DNA of 11,360 nt. Source: Actinomycetota bacterium (lineage in GTDB: Bacteria > Actinomycetota > Actinomycetes > Nanopelagicales > Nanopelagicaceae). Within the stretch, counting starts at the first letter, position 1; the number at the start of each line of letters is the position of its first letter. Shown here one piece after another: positions 2,864-11,042 of this stretch. Below the pieces are notes generated by a model, which was not told the origin of the DNA, did no database searches, and saw nothing but the letters and a program-made list of their open reading frames with translations. The stretch lies in NCBI GenBank assembly GCA_009703165.1, contig WLGP01000012.1, positions 1 to 11,360 of the forward strand. The letters are read 5' to 3'. The position numbers and the translations under genes are program-made.

Positions 2864-4231
2864 TTATCCGTGTGCGTGAAGCGGTTTGCCGGCTAGAGCC
2901 ATGTGCGCTTCGCCCATGGCTTCAGACATTGTTGGATGTGCATGAATCAAAGGAGCAACATCTGCAGCAGTTGCTTCCCAGTTAAAGATCAATTGCGCTT
3001 CTGCAAGTAATTCACCAACGCGCGAACCGACCATGTGAATTCCAAGAACTGGACCATCCTTCTCGGCAACGAGTTTGATAGATCCGGAAGTACCGAGAAT
3101 CTGCGCCTTACCGTTTCCAGCTAAGTCGTAGTTCAGTTCGACAACATTATGGCCACGCTCTTTTGCTTGTGCGGTGGTCAGACCAACTGAAGCAACTTCA
3201 GGCTCTGAATATGTCACGCGAGGGACACCGTCATAGTTAATTGGGCGAGGGTTCAGGCCGGCAATCTCTTCTGCGACGAGAATTCCTTCTTGGAAACCAA
3301 CGTGTGCCAATTGAAGGGTTGGGATCAAGTCACCGACTGCCCAGATCCCTGGAACGTTGGTGCGGCACTTGTCATCAACGATCACATAACCGCGATCCAT
3401 TGTGATGCCCTGCTCTTCATAGCCTAGGTTTGCTGAGACTGGACCACGACCGACAGAGACGAGGAGAAGTTCAGCGCTAAATGTGCGTCCATCTTCGAGC
3501 TCGACAGTCACGCCATCTGCCGTGACGGTGTGTGACTTGAAGCGAACTCCAAGTTCAAAGTTGATTCCGCGCTTGCGGTAGGCACGTTCAAGAAGTTTCG
3601 ATGATGATTCATCTTCGAGAGCGATCAAGTGAGGAAGTCCTTCAATGATCGTTACATCAGAGCCAAATGACTTCCAGACTGAGGCAAATTCGCAACCAAT
3701 TACTCCACCACCGAGAACAATGACGCTCTTTGGAATGTAATCAAGTTTTGTACCGTGATCTGAGGTGATGACGCGCTTTCCGTCGATCTCAAGACCTGGC
3801 AGAGTTTTTGCATATGAGCCGGTAGCCAAGATGACGTTCTTGCCGGTGTAGCGAGTTCCATTTACCTCGACTGTGTCGCGAGAGACTAACTTTCCATAAC
3901 CTTCGACAAATGTAATTCCCCGAGATTTAACGAGCCCTTGGAGGCCTTTATAAAGTTTGGTGATAACTCCATCCTTATATGAGTTAACGCCATTCATATC
4001 AATTGAGTTAAGAGTTGTATTGACGCCAAAGTGTGAGGATTCGCGGGCAGTATCTGCAACTTCACCTGCATGTAGCAGGGCTTTTGTTGGAATACATCCG
4101 CGGTGAAGGCATGTTCCGCCAACCTTGTCAGCTTCGATTAGTACAACGGAGAGTCCGAGTTGGGCGCTACGAAGAGCGGCTGCATATCCACCACTACCGC
4201 CACCGAGTACTACGAGATCGACGTTCGACAA
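2864..4231 (-). CDS. lpdA: Dihydrolipoyl dehydrogenase (E3)
   Basis: A 455-residue flavoprotein disulfide oxidoreductase that re-oxidises the lipoyl arms of 2-oxoacid dehydrogenases and glycine cleavage H protein, passing electrons to NAD+. Visible features: FAD-binding GGGSGG at residues 10-15, redox-active disulfide C41-C46 in [13 protein letters not shown], a second nucleotide-binding motif [13 protein letters not shown] in the middle, the second FAD motif WAVGD, and the C-terminal active-site pair H432 and E437 in [14 protein letters not shown] chose the TTG at 4231 because AAAGGAG lies 8 bases upstream and the protein then begins [12 protein letters not shown], normal for the family. The in-frame ATG at 4252 would add 7 residues, has no ribosome site, and would place that AAAGGAG inside the coding region. 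It probably begins a transcript continuing into E2, 13 bases downstream. Confidence 0.95.
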
Positions 4232-4239
4232 GAGATTTA

Positions 4240-4246
4240 CTCCTTT
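4240..4246 (-). promoter_or_regulatory. Ribosome binding site deciding the lpdA start
   Basis: AAAGGAG on the minus strand, 8 bases before a TTG codon. It lies downstream of the alternative in-frame ATG at 4252, so it supports initiation at the TTG. Confidence 0.65.
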
Positions 4247-4251
4247 GCTCA

Positions 4252-4294
4252 TCTGACCGCAAGGTCTATACCCATATCTTGCCAGTCTGACCGC
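4252..4294. repeat. 9-bp direct repeat TCTGACCGC upstream of lpdA
   Basis: TCTGACCGC (plus strand) occurs at 4252-4260 and 4286-4294, 34 bases start to start, or about three helical turns. A shorter CTGACC lies at 4306-4311. The pair brackets a weak promoter-like stretch: on the minus strand TTGAGC at 4293-4298, TATGGG at 4271-4276 and TATAGA at 4265-4270. It could be an operator for the lpdA-E2 transcript, but two copies alone are modest evidence. The rest of the 134-base spacer to pepA shows no terminator-like hairpin. Confidence 0.4.
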
Positions 4295-4365
4295 TCAATG
4301 ACTAACTGACCTCGGCGGCAGATCACATAATGAGAGGCAGATAACGCTAGGTGGAGAAGTTCGCC

Positions 4366-5886
4366 TTAGATCTGGGCCTTGGCCGCTGCAACGAGTGAAC
4401 GCAGGCCGATACCGGTTCCACCAACAGGGGTGTAGCCATGAGGGCTGCGATCGTTGTAGGCAGGGCCAGCAATATCTAAGTGGAGCCATGGAAGATCATC
4501 GGAGACAAACTCTTTGAGGAAGATTCCGGCAACAAGCATTCCGCCCATGCGATCTCCGATATTTGCAAGATCTGCAACTGGTGAATCAAGGGATGCGCGC
4601 AGCTCGGTTGGAAGTGGCATTGGCCAGAACTGCTCGCCGGTGCTTTGGCTCACCGCAAGAAATGCCGATGAGAGCGCTTCATTATTTGTCATCACCGCAG
4701 ATGTGCGGGTACCAAGAGCAATTACTTGTGCACCAGTAAGAGTTGCAATATCAAAGATCGCATCAAGGCCCTTCTCTTCTTGTGCGCGCTGAAGTGCATC
4801 AGCGAGAACAAGACGACCTTCTGCATCAGGGTTGAGAACTTCAACTGTCTTGCCACCATAAATTGTGATGATGTCACTAGGTCGGGTCGCATTGTCACTG
4901 ACCATGTTTTCTGCAAGTGGTGCCCAGACATCGACTGCAACTGGCAACTTCAACGCTGCGATCGCCAATACAGAGGCGCAGACTGCTGCAGCTCCGCTCA
5001 TATCTGACTTCATCGCCTCCATGCCAAGTGCTGGCTTGAGTGCAAGACCGCCGCTATCGAAGGTGATTCCCTTGCCGACAAATGCGTAACGCTTTGCAGG
5101 CTTTACCTTTCCAGTAGGTGTATATGAAATTCGAACTAAACGTGGGGGATTGGCAGATCCTTGGCCGACAGCTGTAATTCCGCCGTACCCCTTGCTCTTG
5201 AGCGCTGTCTCTGTCATCACTGTGATGGAAAGACCTGCGCGGGCACCGCCTGCTGCCTTTACCTCAGCGCTCATGCGCTCTGCAAATGTCACAGGATTGA
5301 GATGGCTTGGCGGAGTGTTGATGAGGTCACGAGTAAGAAATGTGTACTGGGCAATAACAGATGCCTCAACAGCCGCCTCTTTATATTCAGCCTTTGCTGC
5401 ATGAGATGTATAGATCTTTGCAGATGCTAGAGAAGAGTTACTTGTTACAACTTCATCACTTCTAAATTCATTAAAGAGATATGCGCCAAGACCTGCTCCT
5501 TGTGCAACGGCTGCAACACCTTCTAGATCGCGAGCAGGAAGGGCGAAGGTTGCAGACTTCTGGTTAATCAGTGATCGTGCTGCAGCACCTGCTGCGCGAC
5601 GAAGAGTTTCGTGACCATAGGCAGATGAAACTTTTCCAAGTCCGGTAAAGACCAAGAGACGAACTGAGTTGCCAGGGATCTTGACGACTTCATCTGCCTT
5701 ACCTGTGGCTCCCATATCACTGAGAATCTCTTCCAAGCTCTTGGCATCGAGTGCGAGATCACCTGATTCAATGACCAACGTCGCCTTGCCGCCTTTACGT
5801 GCTGGCTGGCCTTGGGCCAAGCCGACAACAAGGATGTCATCTGTCAGCGATGAGGTGAGAGAGAGTGTGGTCATAGTCGAAGTCAC
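4366..5886 (-). CDS. pepA: Leucyl aminopeptidase, peptidase family M17
   Basis: A 506-residue cytosolic dizinc aminopeptidase that removes N-terminal residues from peptides. The C-terminal catalytic domain is complete: K272 and D277 in KGITFDSGG, K284, D295 in KSDMSG, and D354, E356 and R358 in NPDAEGRLVLADAL. These have exactly the spacing of the metal ligands and catalytic residues of bovine leucine aminopeptidase (250, 255, 262, 273, 332, 334, 336). The N-terminal domain (about 1-170) is less conserved, as usual. The start is GTG at 5886, chosen because GAAAGG at 5892-5897 sits 5 bases upstream; the in-frame ATG at 5874 lacks a site at the right distance. It lies 134 bases upstream of lpdA and may be a separate transcript. 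pepA next to lpdA and divergent gcvT is a familiar actinobacterial arrangement. Confidence 0.95.
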   Translation of the reverse strand: MTSTMTTLSLTSSLTDDILVVGLAQGQPARKGGKATLVIESGDLALDAKSLEEILSDMGATGKADEVVKIPGNSVRLLVFTGLGKVSSAYGHETLRRAAGAAARSLINQKSATFALPARDLEGVAAVAQGAGLGAYLFNEFRSDEVVTSNSSLASAKIYTSHAAKAEYKEAAVEASVIAQYTFLTRDLINTPPSHLNPVTFAERMSAEVKAAGGARAGLSITVMTETALKSKGYGGITAVGQGSANPPRLVRISYTPTGKVKPAKRYAFVGKGITFDSGGLALKPALGMEAMKSDMSGAAAVCASVLAIAALKLPVAVDVWAPLAENMVSDNATRPSDIITIYGGKTVEVLNPDAEGRLVLADALQRAQEEKGLDAIFDIATLTGAQVIALGTRTSAVMTNNEALSSAFLAVSQSTGEQFWPMPLPTELRASLDSPVADLANIGDRMGGMLVAGIFLKEFVSDDLPWLHLDIAGPAYNDRSPHGYTPVGGTGIGLRSLVAAAKAQI

Positions 5887-5906
5887 ATATACCTTTCAAA
5901 AGTTTC

Positions 5907-5934
5907 GGCAGCGCTAACTGCCTCTTCCTAGCGC
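5907..5934. promoter_or_regulatory. Interlocked inverted repeats in the pepA-gcvT divergent promoter region
   Basis: The 68-base spacer holds two overlapping dyads: GGCAG/CTGCC (5907-5911 and 5918-5922, 6-base centre) and GCGCTA/TAGCGC (5911-5916 and 5929-5934). Two mutually exclusive pairings in a spacer that must hold both promoters suggest an operator. The regulator is unknown. Confidence 0.35.
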
Positions 5935-5942
5935 CGTAAGTG

Positions 5943-5954
5943 TAGGTTGATGGG
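5943..5954 (+). promoter_or_regulatory. gcvT: Candidate -10 element for a leaderless gcvT mRNA
   Basis: TAGGTT at 5943-5948 matches TANNNT. The A of the gcvT ATG lies 7 bases after it, where transcription would begin. No well-placed Shine-Dalgarno is present. Leaderless mRNAs with this geometry are common in actinobacteria. Confidence 0.4.
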
Positions 5955-7043
5955 ATGAAAAATTCACCTTTGCATAGCCGCCACGTAGCCCTTGAGGCGA
6001 AGATGGCTGATTTTGGTGGCTGGTTGATGCCTATTGAGTATCCAGGCGCTGGTGTCTTAGCCGAGCATGGAGCGGTGCGAGAGCGAGTAGGGCTCTTTGA
6101 TGTTTCGCACTTAGGTAAGGCGCGAGTTAAGGGTGATGGCGCTCTTGATTTTCTTAATTCAGTTTTCACAAACGATCTCTCTCGAATCACAGACGGTCAG
6201 GCTCAATACACGCTTCTATGTAACGATCAAGGTGGAGTGATTGATGACCTGATTGTCTATCGCAATAGCCCCACCGATTTATTTCTAGTTCCCAATGCAT
6301 CAAATACAACTGATGTAGTTCGAGTACTGCACGAGAGCGCTCCTGCGGGAATAACTGTTGAGAATCTTCATGAAGATTTCGGAGTGATTGCGCTTCAGGG
6401 ACCGAGTGCAGCTGCGGTTCTGCAAAAACTTGGTGCAGAACCTGCCATGGATTACATGGCTTTCTCTCACATGAATATTGGTGGCGCCGATGTCATTATC
6501 TGTCGAACTGGTTACACCGGTGAGCATGGTTTTGAGCTGATTCCACAGCGTGCAGATGTTGAGAAGGTCTGGGATCTCTGCGCTGCTGCAGTCTCGCAAG
6601 AAGGCGGACTTATTTGTGGCCTCGGAGCACGCGACACATTACGCACTGAAATGGGCTATCCACTCCACGGCCATGAACTCTCTCTTGAGATTTCTCCGGT
6701 GCAGGCAAGTGCGACATGGGCTATCGGATGGAAGAAGGGTGCATTTCACGGCCAGGAAGTTCTTCTTGCACAGAAGAACGCTGGTGCAACAAGACGTATG
6801 CGTGGCATTAAATCCAATGATCGTGGAATTCCGCGTGCGGAGATGGAGATCAAAGATTCGGCAGGAAAATCAGTGGGTATCGTGACAAGTGGAACGTTCT
6901 CGCCGACACTTCGCGTGGGAATCGGACTTGCGCTTATTGATACTGCTCTGACAATCGGAGATCAGGTAACGATCGATATTCGAGGGAGAGAGTCAACGGC
7001 AACGATTGTTGAGTTCCCTTTTGTTCCATCACACGTTCGCTAA
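5955..7043 (+). CDS. gcvT: Aminomethyltransferase, glycine cleavage system T protein
   Basis: A 362-residue T protein, full length for the family. It takes the aminomethyl group from lipoyl H protein, releases ammonia and gives 5,10-methylene-tetrahydrofolate. The N-terminus LHSRHVALEAKMADFGGWLMP and the substrate loop GLFDVSHLGK (about 46-55) are typical. The folate-site motif GGVIDDLIVY (93-102) contains the catalytic aspartate, and GYTGEHGFEL and the GLGARDTLRTEMGYPL block follow in the usual order. The C-terminal barrel ends with the expected SPTLRVGIGLA segment. It depends on an E3 subunit, plausibly the lpdA product encoded nearby. gcvP and gcvH are not in the window. Its TAA at 7041-7043 overlaps the stop of the converging S-component gene. 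Confidence 0.95.
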   Translation: MKNSPLHSRHVALEAKMADFGGWLMPIEYPGAGVLAEHGAVRERVGLFDVSHLGKARVKGDGALDFLNSVFTNDLSRITDGQAQYTLLCNDQGGVIDDLIVYRNSPTDLFLVPNASNTTDVVRVLHESAPAGITVENLHEDFGVIALQGPSAAAVLQKLGAEPAMDYMAFSHMNIGGADVIICRTGYTGEHGFELIPQRADVEKVWDLCAAAVSQEGGLICGLGARDTLRTEMGYPLHGHELSLEISPVQASATWAIGWKKGAFHGQEVLLAQKNAGATRRMRGIKSNDRGIPRAEMEIKDSAGKSVGIVTSGTFSPTLRVGIGLALIDTALTIGDQVTIDIRGRESTATIVEFPFVPSHVR

Positions 7044-7849
7044 CTCGTTGCCTGAACGCTCTCTCGAAATTCAATAGGGCTAAGAAAGGCCGCCTTAAAG
7101 TATGTCCGCCTGAGTGCGCGGAGAAACGGCGTTGCAGTAAGAGCAATGAGGGTCGACGTCAAAATCGCTCGAGGAATATCCCAGGCCATCGACGAAGCAA
7201 AGTGGAAGGCAATAAAGCGCGAGAAGTTTTCACTTAACTCACCACCTGGAATATATGAAAGTTCTGTGCTGGAACCCAGAACCCACGGCCAGAACTGAAG
7301 ATCCATCAATAAACCAAAGGCAAAGGATGCAAAGATTCCTACGAGAATCAACATCACTTTCTCGCTGACCCCGCGAATTAATCTGCCACCGATTTTCTGT
7401 GGAAGCGATCCAGCCATGAGTCCAATCCATCCTGCGGCAAATATTTGATAGGAAAGCCACGGTCCGACTCCACCTGTGATCAGCGCTGAAGTTGTCATCG
7501 ATGTAACGCCTAAGAGAAATCCCCATGATGGGCCAAAGACGCGGGCTGCGATGATCAGTGCAAACCAGATCGGCTCAAGACCGGCAGCCCCTGCGCCAAG
7601 TGGGCGGAGCAATGTAATAAATGCGCTCATTACGCCAAGGAGAGCGATCGATTTTGCATCGATCGATCCAATACCAATTTCGGAGATAAGAAGAAAGACA
7701 GATGCTGCGATGGCTATGACAAATATCCACTGTAAATTTCCAGAGTAGAAGAACGGCCAGATGAATCCGGCCAGAGCTATCAGTGATGTAAAGGTCAAAA
7801 CGATCTTTGATTGTGGTGAAAGGCGATAGATATCCAAGGTGCTGTTCAT
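7040..7849 (-). CDS. ECF transporter substrate-binding membrane subunit (S component), predicted corrinoid-specific
   Basis: A 269-residue, very hydrophobic protein with about seven or eight predicted membrane segments. The first two lie near residues 16-32 and 40-56, and a conserved-looking core runs from about 67 to 150 (LLRPLGAGAAGLEPIWF, FGPSWGFLLGVTSM, GGVGPWLSYQ). Position after T and A genes, and this Gly-rich core, identify an S component that binds the transported vitamin. It lacks the N-terminal MHI metal site of CbiM/NikM, so cobalt or nickel is unlikely. The upstream cobalamin riboswitch makes a corrinoid the best guess. The start is ATG at 7849, overlapping the ATPase stop as ATGA with GAAGG 6 bases before; a longer frame from 7912 would lie inside the ATPase gene. 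Its 3' end overlaps gcvT by 4 bases. Confidence 0.8.
   Translation of the reverse strand: MNSTLDIYRLSPQSKIVLTFTSLIALAGFIWPFFYSGNLQWIFVIAIAASVFLLISEIGIGSIDAKSIALLGVMSAFITLLRPLGAGAAGLEPIWFALIIAARVFGPSWGFLLGVTSMTTSALITGGVGPWLSYQIFAAGWIGLMAGSLPQKIGGRLIRGVSEKVMLILVGIFASFAFGLLMDLQFWPWVLGSSTELSYIPGGELSENFSRFIAFHFASSMAWDIPRAILTSTLIALTATPFLRALRRTYFKAAFLSPIEFRESVQATS
7645..7665 (-). repeat. Perfect 8-bp inverted repeat inside the S-component gene
   Basis: CGATCGAT at 7645-7652 and ATCGATCG at 7658-7665 with a 5-base loop. In the mRNA this would make an eight-pair hairpin within the codons for a membrane segment. It may be chance from GATC-rich codons. Confidence 0.6.
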
Positions 7850-9468
7850 TGCACACCTTCGGGATGAGTGACATCTGAAATTGCTTTGAGGGCATCTTTG
7901 ACTGTCAGCCATGGAGCTGGAGACATTACCTTTGCAACCTGAGGTGCAAATGCCGGCGATGAAAGGAGGACATCAACAGTTGCTCCATCTGCAACGACAT
8001 CGCCATCTGCGATGAAGACAACACGATCTGCAACTTCAGCAACTAACTCCACGTCGTGGGTTGCAATCAAGACGCACTTTCCAAGGTTGCGCGCGTACGA
8101 GACGAGCGTGTCAACGAGCATGGTTTTTGCCTGGTAATCCAATCCACGAGTGGGTTCATCCATGATCAATACCTCAGGTGCGCTACATAAGATGAGCGCT
8201 AGAACCAAGGAGAGTCGCTGCCCTTCGGAGAGGTCGCGTGGGTGGGCTTCGGGATTTACAGTCGGAGTTAAACGAGCGAGAAATGCGAGTGTGGATCCGG
8301 CCTCTAGTCCATTGTCACGATCACTTGCCGCGCACTCCTTCGCCACAGATGGATGGATCAATAAGTCACTGGGTTCTTGCGGAATGTAACCAATCTTCTT
8401 TAATCGATCGACTCCGTGGAGTTCAATTGGATTGTTACCAAGAACTCTGACGCTGCCACTATCTGATGAATGAAATCCGACAATCGATTTAAAGAGCGTG
8501 CTCTTGCCGGCGCCATTTCTTCCCATCACGGCGGTAATCTCCCCGGTCCTGAAGTCGAGAGTAATTTCACGCAAAGCGATCTTCTGTCCGTAGCGATGTG
8601 AAAGCTTATTTATCTCAACCACGTTCTCACCTGTCGAATCTGATGATTGCGCAACCAGGGGAGTGAAGTCACGGAGATGAGAAGTCATTCGTCGCACTTC
8701 GCGCACACTTGTGCCTACAGAATCAAGATTGAGGGCTCTAGCTAAATGGACAATCGGAGGAGCGATGGCTGAACGTTTGAGAATCTCTTCCGGAATATCG
8801 ATCTCTGCTTGGCCGTCTCTGGAAATCGAGATGATTCGATCGGCAAAGCCGATAACGCGCTCGAGCTTATGTTCTGAGATAACAACTGTGAGGCCAAGGT
8901 CGTGAACCAATCGATGCAGAATTGAGAGAACTTCTTCGGCGGCGATCGGATCCAGCGCCGACGTTGGTTCATCGAGGACGAGAACCTTCGGGTGCATCAC
9001 TAGTGCGCTACCGATTGCCACTCGCTGTTGTTCGCCACCGCTTAGTGTTGAGATAGATCGTTGGCGCAGATGGGTAAGAGAAAGCAAGTCGAGAATCTCC
9101 TCAACGCGCTTTCGCATGACATCTTGCGAAAAGTTAAGGGCTTCCATTCCGAAGACGAGTTCTTCTTCAACCGTATCTGTAACAAAACCGTGTGCGGGGT
9201 TCTGGCCAACAATTCCAATGATGTGGGCTAAACCGCCCGGCTTTGTCAGAGATGTAGAGATTCCATCTACTGATATATCCCCGGCAAGAATTCCGCCTGT
9301 GTGATGGGGAACTAGCCCGTTAATCAAACGCAGCAGTGAAGATTTACCTGAACCGGTTGCTCCGATGACAAGGACCATCTCACCTTCCTCGATAGTAAAG
9401 GAGAGATTGTCAAAGACGGTCCGCAGCGAATGCGGGTAGATCAACGAGACGTTGCTAAATGAGATCAT
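7846..9468 (-). CDS. ECF transporter ATPase, two fused ABC domains
   Basis: A 540-residue protein carrying both EcfA-type ATPase halves. First half: Walker A GATGSGKS at 36-43, Q-loop Q89, signature LSGGEQ at 142-147, Walker B ending DEP with E167, and switch H200. Second half: Walker A GRNGAGKS at 316-323, Q-loop Q364, signature LSEGQ at 413-417, Walker B with DEP at 437-439, and switch H471. The first domain has the canonical signature while the second has Glu in place of the usual Gly, so the two sites may hydrolyse ATP unequally. The fusion matches dedicated (group I) ECF importers of actinobacteria. The start codon abuts the EcfT stop (TAAATG) without a clear ribosome site, and the stop overlaps the S-component start, so translation is likely coupled along the operon. 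Confidence 0.93.
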   Translation of the reverse strand: MISFSNVSLIYPHSLRTVFDNLSFTIEEGEMVLVIGATGSGKSSLLRLINGLVPHHTGGILAGDISVDGISTSLTKPGGLAHIIGIVGQNPAHGFVTDTVEEELVFGMEALNFSQDVMRKRVEEILDLLSLTHLRQRSISTLSGGEQQRVAIGSALVMHPKVLVLDEPTSALDPIAAEEVLSILHRLVHDLGLTVVISEHKLERVIGFADRIISISRDGQAEIDIPEEILKRSAIAPPIVHLARALNLDSVGTSVREVRRMTSHLRDFTPLVAQSSDSTGENVVEINKLSHRYGQKIALREITLDFRTGEITAVMGRNGAGKSTLFKSIVGFHSSDSGSVRVLGNNPIELHGVDRLKKIGYIPQEPSDLLIHPSVAKECAASDRDNGLEAGSTLAFLARLTPTVNPEAHPRDLSEGQRLSLVLALILCSAPEVLIMDEPTRGLDYQAKTMLVDTLVSYARNLGKCVLIATHDVELVAEVADRVVFIADGDVVADGATVDVLLSSPAFAPQVAKVMSPAPWLTVKDALKAISDVTHPEGVQ

Positions 9469-10230
9469 TTAGAACGCGACCACTGCTAGCGGAATGAATG
9501 CAAGAGATGATGCGATCACAGTGAGGTCGTGGCGGAGCAACTTCTCACGTCGATAGCGAGAACGTTTACGCGAAAAGCCATAACCGCGAGAGTCCATCGC
9601 AGCTGCTAAATCTAGAGATCTCGCTAGCGACTCTTCTAGGAGAGGGAGAGCAACCCCTGCCCACCCTCGCCGTTCTATCCCGCGCATCCGTTGTGCGCTC
9701 TTGATACGTGATGCACTGGAGACTAATTGTGGAAGAACCGATGTCGCGATAACGAGGGCAACTCCAAATTCGTAGATAAAGATGGGCATCTGACGTAAGA
9801 GTCGATGTGGAGATGTCAGAGAGGTAGCAGCAGCGAATATGCAGATGAGCGTTGCAATGTGCACGCCTTCGCTTACTGCAAAGAACAAACGTTCCTGTGT
9901 GATCGCTCCACCGATTCGAATTCCTGCCATCCAATCAGGCAGATAGAGAATTGGTAGTTCAAAGAGGGTGTTTCCTGGAACTGGAACACCAATTGCGATG
10001 CCGATGAATGTGCGAATGGCGATGATTACTAATGCGATTTTGAGGGCAAACCAGAGCCCGCCAGACCATGGCGTCTTATCGATGGCGCTGCGATTTGCTG
10101 TAAAGACGATGAAGGAGATTCCAGCCACGACAGCCACGTTAAAGGCGATGTCATCGGCTAGGGATATGGCGATCGCAAGAACGATCGCACCTATCCACCA
10201 CGTCAATGGGTGGAATCTCTTCTTCATCAT
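9469..10230 (-). CDS. ECF transporter transmembrane coupling subunit EcfT
   Basis: A 253-residue membrane protein with about five hydrophobic segments: near 11-25, 30-44, 60-80, 122-138 and 235-252. Between the last two lie the two coupling-helix motifs diagnostic for EcfT: AQRMRG at 179-184 and AMDSRG at 211-216, both matching A-x-x-x-R-G. These Arg-Gly helices dock into grooves of the two ATPase halves and transmit ATP-driven toppling of the S component. The start is the first of two ATG codons, with AGG 6 bases upstream. It is 41 bases downstream of the secreted-protein gene and touches the ATPase gene without a gap, so it belongs to the same riboswitch-headed operon. Confidence 0.9.
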   Translation of the reverse strand: MMKKRFHPLTWWIGAIVLAIAISLADDIAFNVAVVAGISFIVFTANRSAIDKTPWSGGLWFALKIALVIIAIRTFIGIAIGVPVPGNTLFELPILYLPDWMAGIRIGGAITQERLFFAVSEGVHIATLICIFAAATSLTSPHRLLRQMPIFIYEFGVALVIATSVLPQLVSSASRIKSAQRMRGIERRGWAGVALPLLEESLARSLDLAAAMDSRGYGFSRKRSRYRREKLLRHDLTVIASSLAFIPLAVVAF

Positions 10231-10249
10231 CTACTACCTATGGATTCAT

Positions 10250-10282
10250 TTACTTTGAGGTTACTTTGAGGTTACTTTGAGG
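10250..10282 (-). repeat. Three exact tandem copies of CCTCAAAGTAA
   Basis: Exact 11-bp copies at 10250-10260, 10261-10271 and 10272-10282, read on the minus strand. The first transcribed copy supplies the stop codon of the secreted-protein gene. Because 11 is not a multiple of three, the three TAA triplets fall in three different frames, closing every frame before the EcfT ribosome site. Confidence 0.9.
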
Positions 10283-10808
10283 CTAGTTCTGTCGGAGTTG
10301 GGATCTCTACTCCGCACTCTTTACGCGGATAGCCGGCCAGGCCACAGATGAGTCCTGATTTATCTGCACGCACTCGTACAACTTTTCCTAGAACATCAAT
10401 GCCTTGCGCCTTCTTATCAATGACAATACAACGCTTAACTGTCTTCAGTGGCTTCTCACCAGTTGGAGAGAGGTAGGCAGCACCGAAATCAATGACAATA
10501 CCGATGCGCTTTTTACCGGCAACTGCGCGAGTCTTGCCGCAGAGTGTTTGGAAATCTGGAAGTACTGAAGGTGATGACGCATCTGGGACAGCATCACTTG
10601 AGAATGTGAAGGCCCAACCTTCAACTGCGCCATCTGAAATGTTTACTGTTGGGCCTGTCATGGCAGCCGTCCATGCAGTTGCTTTAGGTGCTGCTTGGAA
10701 GTAACCCCAATAGCGATAGCCCGAACCTGCAGCCGATGCTGAAGGTAAGGTTGAAAGCGTTGAGAGTGAGATGGCAACGGCGGCCAGTATTGCGAATTTC
10801 TTGTTCAT
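10272..10808 (-). CDS. Secreted SCO2322-family protein, first gene of the B12-riboswitch operon
   Basis: A 178-residue protein with a clear Sec signal peptide: MNKK, hydrophobic core to about residue 21, and probable cut after ASA at 24-26. The mature part opens with YRYWGYF (31-37), continues with DGAVEGWAF (59-67) and RIGIVIDFG (101-109), and ends with GLICGLAGYPRKECG (152-166). This order resembles the actinobacterial SCO2322 family, a set of exported proteins of unknown function often encoded beside ECF transporter genes. Four cysteines (90, 127, 155, 165) could make two disulfides. There is no lipobox, sortase signal or C-terminal membrane anchor. AGGAG at 10819-10823 is 10 bases before the ATG and can be masked by riboswitch RNA. 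A role in capturing or handling corrinoid outside the membrane is inference from regulation and position. Confidence 0.85.
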   Translation of the reverse strand: MNKKFAILAAVAISLSTLSTLPSASAAGSGYRYWGYFQAAPKATAWTAAMTGPTVNISDGAVEGWAFTFSSDAVPDASSPSVLPDFQTLCGKTRAVAGKKRIGIVIDFGAAYLSPTGEKPLKTVKRCIVIDKKAQGIDVLGKVVRVRADKSGLICGLAGYPRKECGVEIPTPTELASK

Positions 10809-10815
10809 TTATCTG

Positions 10816-10853
10816 GAGCTCCTCATCATGTGAGAGTCTCACAGGGGTAGCTC
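10816..10853 (-). promoter_or_regulatory. Candidate Shine-Dalgarno-sequestering hairpin (riboswitch expression platform)
   Basis: In the mRNA, GAGCUACC (10846-10853) can pair with GGAGCUC (10816-10822) with one bulged A, burying the AGGAG at 10819-10823. Inside lies a six-pair hairpin UGUGAG/CUCACA (within 10829-10843) that would bring the arms together. No U-run follows, so control of translation is more likely than termination. Confidence 0.55.
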
Positions 10854-10884
10854 GAAGAGATGCGATTGCACGCTTATCTTTGGA

Positions 10885-11007
10885 CTACGCCCCGCAAACC
10901 TCGGCGGGTGTTGGTCAATGCTCTTAGGTAGGTAATCCGACTACGAGCGAAGAACGCTCTCACGGTTGCGGGTCAGCGTCGGATTTGCACCGAACTTCCC
11001 CTACAAA
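10885..11007 (-). promoter_or_regulatory. Cobalamin riboswitch aptamer, compact type
   Basis: Read on the minus strand, the leader holds the ordered hallmarks of a cobalamin riboswitch: TAGGGGAAG, GGTGCAAATCC in a small stem (TCGG/CCGA), GCTGACCCGCAACCGT, a hairpin GAGCG-TTCTT-CGCTC (10945-10959), and the B12 box AGTCGGATTACCTACC (10927-10942). GTAGG at 11000-11004 can pair with CCTAC at 10928-10932 to close the core. Only about 20 bases separate the CGCAAC core from the B12 box, so the large peripheral arm of E. coli btuB-type aptamers is missing, as in the class II/variant group. A downstream loop can kiss the conserved CCCGCAA. It lies 76 bases upstream of the secreted-protein start and should turn the operon off when cobalamin is plentiful. 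Confidence 0.92.
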
Positions 11008-11042
11008 AGAACTGTTGGTTAGAACTGTTAGACAGGACTGTT
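11004..11042 (-). repeat. 13-bp tandem repeat, three copies, upstream of the riboswitch
   Basis: AACAGTCCTGTCT (11030-11042), AACAGTTCTAACC (11017-11029) and AACAGTTCTTTTG (11004-11016) share AACAGTYCT at exact 13-base spacing and end where the riboswitch core begins. They lie in the 66-base gap after the DUF3043 stop, where the operon promoter should be. I found no convincing -35/-10 pair there. Confidence 0.65.

Follow-up and report, generated by a model that had tools for sequence, protein, structure and literature searches.

A circularly permuted transcobalamin-like beta-domain as the probable capture protein of an energy-coupling factor cobalamin importer in freshwater Actinomycetota

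Transcobalamin, the vitamin B12 carrier of animal blood, consists of an alpha/alpha-toroid half and a beta-domain half, the latter of the DUF4430 family. Energy-coupling factor (ECF) transporters are, to our knowledge, generally described as needing no separate binding protein. The operon considered here lies on an 11,360-nt stretch of DNA (the window), contig WLGP01000012.1 of GCA_009703165.1, a metagenome-assembled genome (MAG) of 967,987 bases that is 65% complete and most probably represents a member of the freshwater acI actinobacteria. Behind an adenosylcobalamin (AdoCbl) riboswitch, the operon encodes a secreted protein of the SCO2322 family, the transmembrane coupling subunit EcfT, a fused double ATPase and a dedicated S component. 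We think it likely that this is an ECF importer for B12 whose first gene encodes a capture protein, a transcobalamin-like beta-domain in permuted form that operates without a toroid in the window's lineage. With less assurance, we also lean towards the broader proposal that SCO2322 is a permuted transcobalamin beta-domain serving ECF importers as an external B12 capture module across Actinomycetota, with an optional toroid and a minimal version retained in acI.

Parts of this arrangement have been described before. ECF modules of acI located behind cobalamin/AdoCbl riboswitches were already proposed to be cobalamin transporters (Kang 2017, PMC5301498), and the present operon shares with them its lineage (by the names used), the riboswitch-ECF arrangement and the proposed substrate; the vitamin section of that paper names neither a secreted first gene nor an S family. 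The suggestion of an initial annotation, made from the DNA letters, that the operon represents a poorly described uptake route is therefore only partly upheld, as ECF-mediated cobalamin import by acI had already been predicted. Bacterial transcobalamin-like SLBB proteins encoded with CbiO/CbiQ genes were likewise predicted to scavenge B12 (Burroughs 2007, PMC1796856). They resemble the system studied here in having a secreted beta-grasp domain, often with an alpha/alpha-toroid, in CbiO/CbiQ operons, but the clade as delineated in the relevant passages of that paper comprises animals, low-GC Gram-positives, planctomycetes and euryarchaea, whereas the proteins described here are actinobacterial and permuted; the word "permutation" is absent from its text. 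ECF-CbrT of Lactobacillus delbrueckii is also an ECF importer for cobalamin (PMC5997447), but it is a group II system that uses a shared module, whereas the present operon is of group I, encoding EcfT, the ATPase pair and a dedicated S component at a single locus, and its S profile matches no PDB chain. BtuCDF combines cobalamin import with an external capture protein, and sister genomes place a BtuFC-type pair behind the same riboswitch class, but its permease and capture protein (Peripla_BP_2) are unrelated to those of the operon. As for animal transcobalamin and intrinsic factor, their layout of toroid plus beta-domain recurs in many relatives of the operon, in one case as a fusion, whereas the window has the permuted beta module alone and no match to a solved structure was found. 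In the open-licence literature we found no paper linking SCO2322 to SLBB proteins or to the acI ECF module, and a search for SCO2321-SCO2325 returned only SCO2321, in a paper unrelated by its title. The present analysis adds what the first gene is, that its product is permuted, how it is associated with the toroid across Actinomycetota, and which BtuFC-type system replaces the operon in relatives lacking it.

The permutation is apparent from comparisons of sequence profiles. In a sample of 396 genomes from the phylum, the SCO2322 profile found a match at E<=0.001 in 54 (13 above its cut-off), and in several of these the two halves of the profile occur in reverse order, an order that we refer to as canonical. 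The family set was built after dropping four of 31 sequences, to which the motif used did not fit. Aligned with the canonical-order homologs, the native-order SCO2322 profile matches as two swapped pieces (probabilities 98.8% and 97.6%), and once its halves are exchanged it aligns over 117 columns at 99.8% (E 1.3e-28). Permuted members occur in the acI lineage as well as in the 12 genomes of the class that contributed loci L133-L144. For comparison with the transcobalamin family we used a set of 30 DUF4430 domains, obtained from a search in which 51 of 296 genomes matched. The canonical homologs reach 83.9% against this set with a score of 39.0, compared to 21.3 for the best of 200 column shuffles. 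The window's own family, in swapped order, gives 72.3% (E 3.3e-5, score 33.8; best shuffle 28.9), which is only a moderate signal because one of the 200 shuffles reaches 44.8%; in native order it gives 42.1%, with a best shuffle of 20.3%. Reversed-profile controls stayed at or below 1.9%, and the other families of the operon, used as decoys, below 1%. Furthermore, a hidden Markov model (HMM) of the canonical form, run against 6152 open reading frames (ORFs), yielded 148 matches at E<=1. Of these, 146 are members of the family, and the remaining two are DUF4430 ORFs (E 0.0002 and 0.001) that align over most of the profile. On the strength of these profiles, the SCO2322 domain appears to be homologous to the DUF4430/transcobalamin-like SLBB domains.

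The predicted structure points in the same direction. The AlphaFold2 model of the mature SCO2322 protein (mean predicted local distance difference test, pLDDT, 92.5) has strands at residues 3-13 and 36-45, then 73-81 and 98-105, a helix at 110-117, and strands at 120-122 and 128-131, the assignment being one of order along the chain rather than of strand pairing. The last two strands would form a hairpin inserted behind the helix, again by order and not by pairing. The beta-domain of transcobalamin runs hairpin, helix, hairpin, hairpin (PMC11107200), and the modeled order of SCO2322 differs from this canonical succession by a rotation of one hairpin. In an alignment of 19 acI SCO2322 proteins, a hydrophobic C-terminal tail was seen by eye in five and a lipobox-like N-terminus in two, as would fit a capture protein held at the cell surface.

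The genomic context of the family outside acI connects it with the second half of transcobalamin. A wider sample of 20 regions from 19 genomes was picked from the list of 54 SCO2322-matching genomes; four short loci, three of them from genomes among the 19, had been viewed beforehand and had revealed EcfT and toroid genes. Because ORFs of loci L168-L182 supplied the canonical profile, its matches there are circular, and one of the three sequences behind the toroid profile came from L168; the DUF4430, EcfT, ATPase and S profiles have their sources in other loci. EcfT, the double ATPase and an S component of the same family were present in all 20 regions (on the opposite strand in L180), and an alpha/alpha-toroid gene lay beside them in 14. 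A cobalamin riboswitch scored at or above the gathering score in ten, nine of which carry it upstream of, and on the same strand as, the toroid or beta gene (at about 1.4 kb in L180), with L182 as the exception. In L177, a single ORF (4569-6881) behind a cobalamin riboswitch joins a toroid to a domain matched by the DUF4430 HMM (E 4.1e-5 and 1.6e-4); judged by its sequence, it is a bacterial protein of transcobalamin layout. Independently of the SCO2322 sample, EcfT neighbors the DUF4430 gene in 25 of the 30 DUF4430 loci. L174, L177 and L179 each contain two beta-type ORFs a short distance apart; some species may therefore use paired capture proteins.

The S component matches PF07155 and PF12822, which were found in 16 and 11 of 20 family members, respectively, and the riboflavin and folate-family S models of NCBIfam match ten and seven of the 20. 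None of the 177635 distinct PDB sequences matched its profile at E<=10; a CbrT-like chain was thus not retrieved either, although the presence of the CbrT entry 6FNP among the scanned sequences is unconfirmed. The AlphaFold2 model (pLDDT 85.0) has the S fold: its best Foldseek matches are FolT, RibU, ThiT and PanT, and all 19 best are S components, the first 12 with a probability of 1.00, yet with E values of 0.02 or higher. The claim in the initial annotation that the protein lies outside the characterized S families holds for the Pfam, NCBIfam and PDB scans, CblT and BtuM not having been compared one by one. The same is true of its remark that the metal site of CbiM/NikM is lacking, given that no CbiM match appeared at E<=1 and that the N-terminus, MNSTLDIY, is without what we take to be the CbiM/NikM N-terminal metal motif.

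What speaks most strongly for cobalamin as the substrate is the riboswitch, which in our sample sits on one importer or the other. Among 121 genomes of the order, 77 encode the S protein and 70 a FecCD permease, 64 of the latter at E below 1e-9. With this stricter limit, 30 genomes have both, 47 S alone, 34 FecCD alone and ten neither (Fisher p 6e-5, kinship ignored); a clear FecCD is thus missing from 47 of the 77 S-bearing genomes. A single-contig genome of the window's genus that lacks S (G021) carries in its place, at 3481-9101 of locus L213, an AdoCbl riboswitch followed by a BtuF-like Peripla_BP_2 protein, FecCD, an ATPase, CobU, CobS and a HAD-CobT fusion. We hand-picked 20 further FecCD loci from the match list, of which 12 came from S-less genomes, six from S-bearing ones and two were second copies in S-less genomes. 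An AdoCbl riboswitch lies about 1 kb upstream of FecCD above the gathering score in ten of the 12, and the other two, L220 and L224, fall just short of it (45.5 and 49.9 against 50); including G021, 11 of 13 loci are above the threshold and two just below. In the eight control loci (six S-bearing, two second copies) no AdoCbl riboswitch was detected even at E<=1. Since a Peripla_BP_2 gene lies directly upstream of FecCD in all 20 loci, as it does in G021, the riboswitch alone tells the two kinds apart. As a separate observation, three single-contig genomes from another genus of the family (G008, G011 and G019) lack both S and FecCD, yet encode NrdJ and an adenosyltransferase, with MetH in addition in G008 and G011.

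The gene content of the order is consistent with import of the complete vitamin. In the same 121 genomes, CbiC was never found and CobS only once, in a genome without this operon. A PduO-type adenosyltransferase was detected in 114, MetH in 91 (the window's MAG included), methylmalonyl-CoA mutase in 22, and the NrdJ profile in 111 at E<=0.001, with 98 above the cut-off. The counts for CbiC, CobS, adenosyltransferase, MetH and NrdJ therefore indicate that B12 is used and not made by known routes, and the single CobS implies that, that one genome apart, precursors cannot be completed by the known route. The corrinoid precursor that the initial annotation had left as an alternative is thus disfavored. 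Cargo other than B12, be it a flavin, cobalt, or a precursor such as cobinamide, would accord with the riboflavin label of PF07155 (PF12822 being a general family), with the NCBIfam matches to riboflavin and folate-family models, and with the fact that transporters of cobalt and of precursors are also under riboswitch control (PMC3766115). Against such cargo stand the near-absence of CobS, the BtuFC-type replacement behind the same riboswitch class, the lack of any flavin mononucleotide riboswitch in the window at E<=1, and a separate cluster on contig 122 of the same MAG (L001, 199-2036) that encodes CbiQ, by profile, along with a CbiN-like protein and a CbiO-like ATPase, both recognized by eye. 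We regard other cargo as very improbable. The preference for cobalamin over cobalt expressed in the initial annotation is in line with this cluster, with the missing CbiM match and with the placement of the riboswitch on the Peripla_BP_2-FecCD genes of operon-less relatives, and import of cobalamin by the operon is well supported. The L001 cluster itself looks like a separate cobalt/nickel ECF system, perhaps for nickel because the order has no CbiC.

Several results count against a B12 importer with a transcobalamin-like capture protein. Besides the moderate signal of the window family against DUF4430, the Pfam DUF4430 model did not match the window protein at E<=10 and was found in only one of 19 canonical homologs (E 0.04), the canonical profile matched no transcobalamin chain in the PDB, and a Foldseek search with the SCO2322 model found nothing among PDB and viral models (best E 0.96 and 1.5). 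A permuted fold is expected to escape Foldseek because the search aligns in chain order; the outcome is still a negative one. Low identity, failing single-sequence Pfam searches, the missing Foldseek match and a native-order probability of just 42% are also what convergence between two small secreted beta-rich domains might produce. We nevertheless consider convergence quite unlikely, as shuffled, reversed and decoy profiles score lower, the modeled element order is the published transcobalamin order in rotated form, and the SCO2322 and DUF4430 families have the same operon context. With respect to the toroid, the 60 best of its 83 PDB matches belong to squalene-hopene cyclases, C3 fragments, prenyltransferases and similar proteins, with no transcobalamin among them, and no toroid gene was found in the window, in 19 of 20 fetched acI loci (L050 being the single locus with one) or in any of 61 close relatives. 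A toroid-less lineage, the Foldseek negatives and the fact that B12 binding by SCO2322 is a prediction would all suit a B12 importer in which SCO2322 is a non-binding extracytoplasmic scaffold, stabilizer or cell-wall factor of the ECF complex. The profile tie to the DUF4430/transcobalamin family and the toroid beside SCO2322 in 14 of the 20 wider loci argue for a capture protein instead, and we judge the scaffold role unlikely. Finally, at least one B12 enzyme is encoded in 77 of 77 genomes with S and in 43 of 44 without it, which provides no discrimination, and neither NrdJ nor an adenosyltransferase was found in the window's MAG, nor was FecCD; these gaps mean little because the MAG is 65% complete.

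We therefore favor a capture-and-import mechanism, in which the ligand, its binding, its hand-over and the direction of transport are what we infer from the data above. The stand-alone (group I) ECF importer would carry complete cobamides such as cobalamin, and adenosylcobalamin would shut the operon off through the leader riboswitch. The first gene would give rise to an exported capture protein whose chain starts with the part that closes the beta-domain of transcobalamin. In numerous other Actinomycetota, a toroid, beside or fused, would be the counterpart of the transcobalamin alpha-domain; given this placement, we propose that B12 is sandwiched between the two and then handed to S. In the window's lineage, where the toroid gene appears to have gone, the beta module would by itself capture B12 outside the membrane and deliver it to S. 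Such capture by a beta module alone is plausible, since in the animal carriers it is the beta-domain that engages the ligand first, and cobalamin binding has been described for domains in isolation (PMC11107200). EcfT and the ATPases would then drive release of B12 into the cell, where it would be adenosylated and serve MetH and NrdJ, and in some genomes also methylmalonyl-CoA mutase. If this interpretation is correct, SCO2322, a family without assigned function in acI-like and Streptomyces-like genomes, gains a testable one, and transcobalamin-type B12 carriers extend, in permuted form, to Actinomycetota. It would also suggest that external capture proteins can serve ECF importers, and offer a possible route by which B12-dependent, non-producing freshwater bacteria scavenge the vitamin without BtuCDF.

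The operon on which this proposal rests (Table 1) is highly conserved. Every part of what the initial annotation had described as an ECF operon headed by a secreted protein and a cobalamin aptamer was confirmed on the minus strand by Rfam or profile matches. The presence of a secreted first gene had been noted there, but its identity had not been recognized. The order SCO2322-EcfT-EcfAA'-S recurs in all 20 relatives that were fetched, which places the operon beyond chance, and the last three genes overlap by 1 to 17 bases. A cobalamin-clan riboswitch scores at or above the Rfam gathering score in 18 of the 20; of the two misses, L048 ends at a contig edge before it and L049 is just below threshold (30.3 against 31.5). 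In a named collection, 181 stretches encode a relative, of which the best 80 were kept; these loci and the 121-genome set are partly the same genomes. Sixty-one of the 80 extend 3.6 kb or more beyond S on its upstream side, and the four-gene order is kept in every one of these 61. A covariance model built from 13 aptamers of the lineage was run on 62 loci from the best 80 and matches 61, the single miss (L054) beginning just before the SCO2322 domain.

Table 1. Coordinates of the operon's features in the window.
Feature	Position	Strand	Match
AdoCbl (cobalamin) riboswitch aptamer, operon leader	10880..11026	-	RF01482, 52.3 bits (gathering score 50), E 1.7e-7
SCO2322-family secreted protein, 178 aa, first gene	10272..10808	-	NF040672, 150.9 bits (cut-off 85)
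EcfT transmembrane coupling subunit, 253 aa	9469..10230	-	PF02361, 27.0 bits (cut-off 25)
EcfA-EcfA' fused double ATPase, 540 aa	7846..9468	-	PF00005 (ABC_tran), two stretches
S component, 269 aa, dedicated	7040..7849	-	PF07155, 26.7 bits (cut-off 26.7)

The SCO2322 protein has a signal-like N-terminal stretch, as judged by eye and without a signal predictor. In NCBIfam, the fused ATPase is above the cut-off of TIGR01166 (cbiO) and, with 300.8 bits, below that of TIGR04520 (315). The longest ORF would place the start of the S gene at 7912, too far upstream; the start that is conserved is an ATG at 7849, which gives a 4-nt overlap with the ATPase gene, as it does in 15 of 20 relatives. With the long start the PF07155 score is 26.2 bits, and with the conserved start it equals the cut-off of 26.7. 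The operon is flanked by a DUF3043 gene upstream and by GcvT downstream on the opposite strand. Folding of the leader RNA is not unusual (z -1.31), and a promoter and terminator scan returned one promoter-like site against 4.4 expected and seven terminator-like sites against 3.9, none of which was used. An Rfam match to isrG that covers the repetitive SucB linker (2051-2293) was rejected, being below threshold (22.9 bits against 100). A search of viral contigs for the S component gave two stretches that fit a pattern, with none confirmed. Six loci of the named collection (L074, L080, L091, L092, L096 and L109) carry the acI operon under Bifidobacterium breve or Streptomyces griseus titles, and the MAG names look wrong. 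At the 3' end of the SCO2322 gene, TTACTTTGAGG occurs three times in tandem (10250-10282), and the stop codon at 10272-10274 opens the third copy.

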